Source: an uncultured Clostridia bacterium (GTDB lineage: Bacteria > Bacillota > Clostridia > Oscillospirales > Acutalibacteraceae). From it: DNA of 64,000 nucleotides. The stretch lies in the NCBI GenBank assembly GCA_905235625.1, contig CAJOLX010000006.1, forward strand, positions 39,003-103,002, written 5' to 3'. Below are positions 59,304-60,067 of this stretch, piece by piece. How positions within the stretch are numbered: position 1 is the first letter of the stretch; every line of letters starts with the position of its first letter. Both the position numbers and the translations under genes were made by a program. The notes beneath the pieces were generated by a model. That model had not been told where the DNA came from. It saw nothing but the letters and a program-made list of their open reading frames with translations, and searched no databases.

Positions 59304-59379
59304 CGGGGTGTAGCGCAGATGGTAGCGCGCTTGGTTCGGGACCAAGAGGCCGTGGGTTCAAATCCCGCCACTCCGACCA
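59304..59379 (+). tRNA. tRNA-Pro(CGG)
   Basis: CGGGGTG/CACTCCG acceptor, anticodon arm CTTGG-TTCGGGA-CCAAG, T arm GTGGGTTCAAATCCCGC, encoded CCA. Confidence 0.95.
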
Positions 59380-59385
59380 AGAAAA

Positions 59386-59415
59386 AACCGACACTTAATG
59401 TGTCGGCTTTTTCTT
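59386..59415 (+). terminator. terminator after tRNA-Pro
   Basis: aaaaCCGACAC-ttaat-GTGTCGGctttttc. Confidence 0.8.
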
Positions 59416-59427
59416 TACCCGAAATAC

Positions 59428-59449
59428 GGATTTGACACCCACGGCCTCT
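59428..59449 (-). repeat. inverted copy of tRNA-Pro 3' half fragment
   Basis: Reverse complement AGAGGCCGTGGGTGTCAAATCC vs tRNA AGAGGCCGTGGGTTCAAATCC (59345-59365). Confidence 0.75.
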
Positions 59450-59548
59450 GACAAATACGGGGTCCCCGAAAAGTCGCAGACTTTTTGGGGAAAGGAGGAG
59501 CAGCGGAGCGAGTGAGTTTTCGCGCGGACAAGCTTTTGATAGGCGCGG

Positions 59549-59809
59549 AAACGAGCGATACGAAGCTTGCGACGACCCGCCACTCCGACCAGAAAAATCC
59601 GTCCGAGAGGACGGATTTTTCAGTTATATTCGCCTGCGGCGAGTTATATTGCGCTGCAGTTATTCGGCTTTACGCCGAGTGATATTGCGCTGCGCGCAGT
59701 TTACGGCGGATATAATATCGCTTTTCGCGTCAGCGAAAAATATCGCGTTTGCCGAAAGGCAAACATATCGCATCGAGTGAAAGCGAGATATATCACTTTT
59801 TTTGCGCGT
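59549..59809 (+). repeat. hairpin-array repeat, copy 1 (about 261 bp)
   Basis: Starts aaacgagcgatacgaagcttgcgacgac, contains CCCGCCACTCCGACCA (tRNA-Pro 3' end) and about 7 short stem-loops. Confidence 0.85.
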
Positions 59810-60067
59810 AAACGAGCGATACGAAGCTTGCGACGACGCGGTTCAAATCCCGCCACTCCGACCGGAAAAATCCGTCCTCTCGGACGGATTTTTCAGCTAT
59901 ATTCGCCTATGGCGAGTTATATTGCGCTGCAGTTATATTCGGCTTTACGCCGAGTGATATTGCGCTGCGCGCAGTTTACGGCGGATATAATATCGCTTTT
60001 CGCGTCAGCGGAAAATATCACGTTTGCCGCAAGGCAAACATATCACATCGAGTGAAAGCGAGATATA
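59810..60067 (+). repeat. hairpin-array repeat, copy 2
   Basis: Same order as copy 1; contains GGTTCAAATCCCGCCACTCCGACC, 24 bp identical to tRNA-Pro 59355-59378. Confidence 0.85.

Follow-up and report, generated by a model that had tools for sequence, protein, structure and literature searches.

Two arrays of small hairpins stand in tandem directly 3' of a tRNA-Pro(CGG) gene (59304-59379) in a stretch of 64,000 nucleotides from an uncultured Clostridia bacterium, referred to here as the window. There is no evident protein gene separating the tRNA from the hairpin units, and neither unit contains an ORF. The question raised by this locus is what kind of sequence the units represent, and how such sequences come to lie behind a tRNA gene. 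Comparison with related genomes suggests that they are probably ORF-less members of a family of IVP-type elements that target the 3' ends of stable-RNA genes. The location, boundaries, gene linkage, inverted spacers, and covariation of these arrays were observed directly, and we infer that the element is mobile.

Organization of the tRNA-Pro(CGG) locus

A preliminary description of this DNA had noted two tandem copies with the same stems. A repeat search of the window recovered both, as a 132-nt pair (59661-59792 and 59936-60067, 97%) and an 88-nt pair (59576-59663 and 59849-59936, 91%), with a unit-to-unit spacing of 273 to 275 nt, and every stem named earlier is present in both units. The start had been placed at 59549, too early by about 40 nt, which belong to a different module; unit 1 proper starts at 59592. 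Features of the locus, with the basis for each in parentheses, are as follows.

59304-59379, plus strand: tRNA-Pro(CGG), with the modules stacked behind it (ARAGORN; Rfam RF00005, 67.9 bits)
59380-59415, plus strand: terminator-like hairpin of the first module, AAGAAAAAACCGACAC-TTAA-TGTGTCGGCTTTTTCTT (sequence)
59428-59449, minus strand: imperfect inverted copy of the T-loop, 5' T-stem, and variable region of tRNA-Pro (inverted repeat pair)
59459-59575, plus strand: element A, a second repeat family (GGGGTCCCCG...GCTTGCGACGAC), the last ~37 nt of which occur again at 59804-59840 (repeats)
59576-59591, plus strand: the final 16 nt of tRNA-Pro repeated (CCCGCCACTCCGACCA), immediately ahead of unit 1 (repeats)
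59592-59621, plus strand: unit 1's own terminator-like hairpin, GAAAAATCCGTCC-GAGA-GGACGGATTTTTC (sequence, inverted repeat)
59621-59698, plus strand: left half of unit 1, Gut-1-like, four small hairpins with spacers GTTATATT/GTGATATT (Rfam RF01706 at 59621-59690, 39.2 bits; alignment)
59630-59642, 59650-59658, 59664-59678, and 59686-59698, plus strand: the left-half hairpins of unit 1
59705-59716, plus strand: centre of unit 1, GGCGGATATAAT, complementary to the array start TTATATTCGCC as a long-range stem (fold; conserved in the alignment)
59717-59796, plus strand: right half of unit 1, three hairpins with GNRA-like loops (sequence, alignment, covariation)
59722-59739, 59747-59764, and 59772-59789, plus strand: the right-half hairpins of unit 1
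59804-59840, plus strand: 3' end module of element A, GCGCGTAAACGAGCGATACGAAGCTTGCGACGACGCG (direct repeat; many further copies in the genome)
59840-59864, plus strand: copy of the last 25 nt of tRNA-Pro, directly before unit 2 (sequence comparison)
59865-59894, plus strand: unit 2 hairpin, GAAAAATCCGTCC-TCTC-GGACGGATTTTTC, the exact reverse complement of the unit 1 hairpin (inverted repeat)
59894-60067, plus strand: unit 2 array, the same seven hairpins, ending early within the last spacer (Rfam RF01706 at 59894-59965, 45 bits, E 7e-7)

The copy of tRNA-Pro before unit 2 starts at tRNA position 52, in the T-stem, and has G for A as its last base. Both tRNA 3'-end copies at this locus belong to element A, not to the array. 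Inverted tRNA copies like the one at 59428-59449 also lie behind tRNA-Arg, tRNA-Met, and tRNA-Val. Within unit 1, the right-half spacers (ATATCGC/ATATCAC) are the reverse complement of the left spacers, and counterparts of the first hairpin in other genomes start at the CCA of other RNA genes.

Differences between the two units fall at 7 of 27 loop positions, 1 of 107 stem positions, and 5 of 65 spacer positions (loop versus stem, Fisher p = 4.7e-5), which agrees with the earlier statement that changes are mostly in loops. Four of the loop changes trace to one inversion: over 30 nt, unit 2 opens with the exact reverse complement of the hairpin that opens unit 1. For the same reason, what had been described as an inverted GAGA/TCTC loop is indeed an inversion, but one of the whole hairpin and not of the loop. 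The sole stem change, GCGAAAA to GCGGAAA, keeps a T-G wobble, and both units folded more stably than dinucleotide shuffles by a wide margin, with z scores of −7.3 for unit 1 and −7.35 for unit 2. An assembly artifact at the duplication was rejected, because the copies differ and the same tandem design recurs at a tRNA-Ala gene on another contig (L002).

The left half of each array resembles Gut-1 RNA

Gut-1 was found in metagenomes and judged by its discoverers to be a likely noncoding RNA (PMC2864571); Rfam classes it as an sRNA. Against the covariance model for this family (RF01706), for which 50 bits is the membership cutoff, the window copies scored 45 and 39.2 bits, both just under the cutoff, and were therefore filed as Gut-1-like, while sister copies in the same genome scored over it at 50.7 to 53.7 bits. 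Among 60 relatives, sampled as one genome per species and mostly MAGs, RF01706 was detected in 44, spanning many families of the order and reaching about 50 copies per genome, with copies over the cutoff in 38.

The arrays share with Gut-1 the three left-half hairpins and spacers of the G(T)GAAAT type, and the match runs over the full model (positions 1 to 77). However, the Rfam model covers the left part only. The full feature extends beyond it with a fourth hairpin, the long-range stem, a right half with inverted spacers, and its own terminator-like hairpin, and in relatives with a gene of the PF05635 family. The link to a tRNA-3'-end element carrying a PF05635 gene likely gives this orphan RNA an identity.

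Arrays are mirror-symmetric and their stems covary

The consensus from the alignment is a terminator-like hairpin, four spacer-hairpin repeats, a centre, and three further spacer-hairpin repeats in which the spacer is reverse complemented, with the centre complementary to the array start (TTATATTCGCC / GGCGAATATAA). At least six spacer dialects were found (GTTATAT, GTGATAT, GTGAAAT, GTGATG, GTGAAG, and GCTAAA), and in these the left and right halves stay complementary. A strict test for inverted spacers was passed by 22 of 39 arrays, compared to 0.5% of shuffles. Loop polarity also switches at the array centre: 87 of 115 left loops are TNC, TYNC, or TRNC and none is GNA or GNRA, while 76 of 141 right loops are GNA, GNRA, or GNYA. 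The GNRA-like loops of the preliminary description are thus a property of the right half, since same-strand loops in the left half are TNC/TYNC, the complement of GNA/GNRA. UNCG tetraloops were considered for the left half and rejected, as the stem register gives TNC triloops. Because loops flip with the halves and spacers are inverted, the array structure is mirror-symmetric.

Across 34 arrays from many genomes, right-half stems have on average 5.4 to 6.6 perfect pairs, compared to 2.5 to 3.5 when 3' halves are swapped between arrays, and each right-half stem position is represented by 12 to 16 different arm sequences. Both sides of these stems therefore change together, which supports, well beyond this locus, the earlier proposal of selection on, or generation by, hairpin structure.

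Strongly covarying stems and a folding z score of about −7.3 also favor the reading that Gut-1 is a functional noncoding RNA, either a trailer or an independent small RNA, under RNA-level selection and placed beside tRNAs by co-transcription or processing. The sRNA listing in Rfam and the discoverers' verdict of a likely noncoding RNA (PMC2864571) point the same way. Three features make such an RNA an unlikely explanation: the array starts right after a strong terminator-like hairpin, the loop preference is mirror-symmetric across the centre and not strand-specific, and copies range from 0 to about 50 per genome, many of them truncated, a pattern more typical of a repeat element than of a housekeeping RNA. 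Mirror symmetry is predicted by a DNA site read from both strands, and not obviously by RNA-level selection on one strand. We only infer such a DNA site, because the position of the array relative to the ORF promoter is mixed, with promoter-like sequence separating array and ORF in some copies and the array abutting the ribosome-binding site in others. A general placement of the array outside the transcribed region was not upheld, since promoter-like sequence occurs between array and ORF in only some copies.

Arrays behind tRNA and tmRNA genes have a sharp edge at the CCA

A genome-wide search for the array, as the preliminary description had advised, returned 42 DNA matches in the window's genome. 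Array copies in this genome lie behind tRNA-Pro(CGG), Pro(GGG), Ala, Arg(CCG), Arg(TCT), Met, Leu(TAG), and Gly(GCC). At the tRNA-Ala gene the tandem design comes with copies of that tRNA's own 3' end, which marks the tRNA copies as local. Of 92 array loci in three related genomes, 18 were located within 150 nt on the 3' side of a tRNA, compared to ~0.3 expected, and none of the 92 was on the 5' side. The distance from tRNA to array was 37 to 48 nt at 17 of these 18 loci and 65 nt at the other; the remaining 74 loci were not beside a recognized tRNA. An exact-pattern scan of named genomes yielded 82 array sites in gut and rumen Clostridia/Oscillospiraceae MAGs. Of these sites, 21 come after a gene for a tRNA or tmRNA, and at 17 more a loose test placed CCA ahead of the hairpin, many being visible tRNA 3' ends.

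Pairs of arrays from different genomes, behind tmRNA, Leu, Trp, and Ser genes, have 90 to 100% of the hairpin and 80 to 87% of the array in common, compared to 48 to 64% of the 25 nt before CCA and 12 to 38% further upstream. The first hairpin is therefore part of the element, and the 5' edge of the element is the CCA. tRNA-Gln(CTG) and its array in two MAGs match at 95.6% over 321 bp, with unrelated flanks. In an empty-site comparison, sequence downstream of the orthologous tRNA-Pro(CGG) in relatives was unrelated to that in the window. A pairwise search for filled and empty pairs among 80 named loci found only one orthologous pair, both members of which were filled. A second array type, with TGATGT/ACATCA spacers, occurs at another locus in the window's genome (L009), behind tRNA-Gln(TTG) and beside an array with GTTATATT spacers.

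Full-length relatives carry a PF05635 gene

The genes linked to arrays were assessed with 30 PF05635 (TIGR02436) loci from relatives, 29 of which had visible upstream sequence. An array stands directly upstream of 15 of these 29 genes, in several spacer dialects, and seven of the 15 loci start right behind a tRNA gene; about half of the PF05635 genes examined are without such a hairpin array. Among the 82 pattern-found arrays, eight have the PF05635 ORF 140 to 240 nt downstream on the same strand, and ORFs behind arrays in relatives score 44 to 68 bits against PF05635 (Pfam cutoff, 33.8). Non-allelic copies are homologous from the array up to the stop codon and no further. Gut-1 and a PF05635 gene were both present in 34 of 60 genomes, both absent in 10, and present singly in 16 (Fisher p = 0.006, phylogeny ignored). 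No PF05635 match was found in the window's genome, either in the window or elsewhere, and the window copies are ORF-less, so the gene is either unneeded to keep arrays or has been lost. A search of the open-access literature found no paper linking Gut-1, PF05635, and tRNA genes.

Individual loci vary in layout. One looks like a fusion within an array spacer with loss of the ORF (L196), another has right-half hairpins on both sides of the ORF (L195), and a third, in reverse orientation behind tRNA-Gln, has two different array-PF05635 elements in tandem with different spacer dialects (L167). PF05635 genes without a hairpin array include those at L093, L098, L104, L106, L113, L116, L241, L250, and L262. 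Such genes are often preceded by tandem short words (AATGCGGAATGCGG, TAATTCATAATGCATAATT, GGAGTCAGGAGACAGGAG, and AACTAGTAACTAG), which are perhaps other dialects of the same design.

Passive repeats would offer a simpler origin, in which old tRNA-flanking sequence was amplified by homologous recombination or gene conversion without dedicated mobility. The tandem units and tRNA 3'-end copies at tRNA-Pro and tRNA-Ala are consistent with this, as are the apparent spacer fusion lacking the ORF at L196 and the PF05635-free genome of the window. Such an origin is improbable, however, given that hairpin and array recur from genome to genome behind different RNA genes, sharply bounded at CCA, that the same array is found within unrelated flanks, and that many arrays lie away from tRNAs.

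The units could also be scars of tRNA-targeting integrative elements, with the tRNA 3' fragments as attL and attR, crossover by a tyrosine recombinase in the T-arm, and the arrays as cargo or deletion remnants. Such scars would suit the tRNA 3' copies, most of which start at precisely the same distance, 25 nt, from the 3' end (behind Pro, Ala, Arg, Val, and Leu tRNAs in three genomes). Yet neither an integrase nor any other island gene turned up between the copies, each copy is specific to its adjacent tRNA though the intervening sequence is the same, and no tRNA copy was found 3' of the array elements that have an ORF, making integrative scars quite unlikely.

The preliminary description was sound on hairpin structure and overlooked the tRNA, the tRNA 3'-end copies, Gut-1, and PF05635; the partner it proposed to look for was a REP-type transposase or reverse transcriptase. 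REPINs have inverted hairpin units with spacer motifs, and ORF-less copies are typical of them. The arrays resemble REP, BIME, and REPIN sequences in these respects and as non-autonomous intergenic units present many times per genome, but palindromic repeats moved by a Y1 (RAYT/IS200-type) transposase or a reverse transcriptase are a very unlikely explanation, since Y1_Tnp (PF01797) has no match in the window's genome (G000) or in G039, G047, G051, G055, and G059, the last five being array-rich and free of RVT_1 as well, yet having 3 to 7 PF05635 genes each. Array units are also much longer and tied to tRNA 3' ends. With both enzymes missing from these array-rich genomes, neither was retained as a general mobilizer. 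RVT_1 occurs in only 25 of the 60 genomes, and the single reverse transcriptase of the window's genome is on contig C9, on which no array was found. The arrays therefore lack the linked reverse transcriptase gene that would mark a group II intron or a diversity-generating retroelement. Avd proteins of diversity-generating retroelements, which belong to the same four-helix-bundle superfamily as PF05635, represent a different setting, as no reverse transcriptase lies beside the arrays and array-rich genomes lack RVT_1. PF05635 is mentioned in a review of diversity-generating retroelements (PMC10053308).

Relationship to rRNA intervening sequences

The S23/IVP protein is a homopentamer of four-helix bundles, and mobility of the rRNA intervening sequences has long been suspected (PMC4990558). 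Like the rRNA intervening sequences of Coxiella and Leptospira (PMC4990558), the array elements have the PF05635 family in their full-length relatives, carry hairpin-rich inverted repeats, and lie in or at stable-RNA genes. Unlike them, array elements lie behind a tRNA or tmRNA 3' end with their own terminator and not inside an rRNA helix, and their inverted repeats, broken up into an array of hairpins, all lie 5' of the ORF. None of the fetched flanks of the 30 PF05635 loci of the order contained LSU or SSU rRNA, and the array element does not have the classical position of an intervening sequence inside a 16S or 23S rRNA helix. Judged by the gene content of its full-length relatives, the array element would belong with the rRNA intervening sequences; judged by its own sequence, it would be called Gut-1-like.

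In other lineages of the phylum, PF05635 genes were found inside 23S rRNA as classical intervening sequences (L249, L255, and L256) and inside the RNase P RNA gene (L261 and L264). In L264 the feature is at 1247-2021 on the minus strand. The insertion amounts to an rnpB intervening sequence with a PF05635 gene and is spanned by an RF00010 match of 294 bits. The 23S rRNA insertion in L249 has terminal inverted repeats of short repeated words of the GGAGGTTAGA type, and the PF05635 gene in L261 is bounded by inverted repeats of short repeated words. After 23S rRNA and RNase P RNA, the 3' ends of tRNA and tmRNA genes appear to be a third habitat of this class. A broader proposal can be made tentatively, in which PF05635 genes would define a wide class of mobile elements colonizing 23S rRNA, RNase P RNA, and tRNA/tmRNA 3' ends, each with an inverted short-repeat array in its own dialect that the protein reads. 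Gut-1 "RNA" might then be that array, as hairpin-forming DNA and not an RNA gene.

A model for spread at tRNA 3' ends

On the reading of the window units as ORF-less members of an IVP-type family, the full element, as found in relatives, consists of its own terminator-like hairpin right after CCA, the inverted hairpin array with Rfam Gut-1 as its left half, and the PF05635 gene, at whose stop codon the shared sequence ends. Landing behind CCA with its own terminator would leave the tRNA functional, and such tolerance can be likened to that of rRNA intervening sequences, which are tolerated because RNase III cuts them out. The element may spread at tRNA 3' ends, either inserting or being copied there. 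Recognition would fall to the array, probably in the form of hairpin-forming DNA, since each half puts a GNA/GNRA loop on the symmetry-making strand, and the array could be bound by the PF05635 four-helix-bundle protein. ORF-less copies may have arisen by deletion and then spread in trans or by recombination.

Gut-1 has stood as an orphan ever since it was discovered (PMC2864571), and what the IVP (S23) protein does, and how it relates to mobility, has been a question from the first description of intervening sequences onward (PMC4990558). Finding the array and PF05635 side by side, with sharp edges at tRNA and tmRNA CCA, joins these two old puzzles. Two predictions follow: the PF05635 protein should bind the array, and presence of the array should vary between strains at the same tRNA gene. 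The case is also a caution that what is taken for a covarying "structured RNA" may act at the level of DNA.

Element A

The second repeat family at the locus, element A (...GAAACGAGCGATACGAAGCTTGCGACGACG), occupies 59418-59591 and 59804-59864 in the window and also occurs at L002, L005, L006, L015, L016, L064, and L066. It is often preceded by an inverted copy of the tRNA variable loop and T-arm. Copies are fused to a copied stretch of the adjoining tRNA that begins at T-stem position 52, exactly 25 nt before the 3' end. In three genomes these fusions involve Pro, Ala, Arg, Val, and Leu tRNAs. Element A is also found away from tRNAs and looks like a separate tRNA-targeting module.
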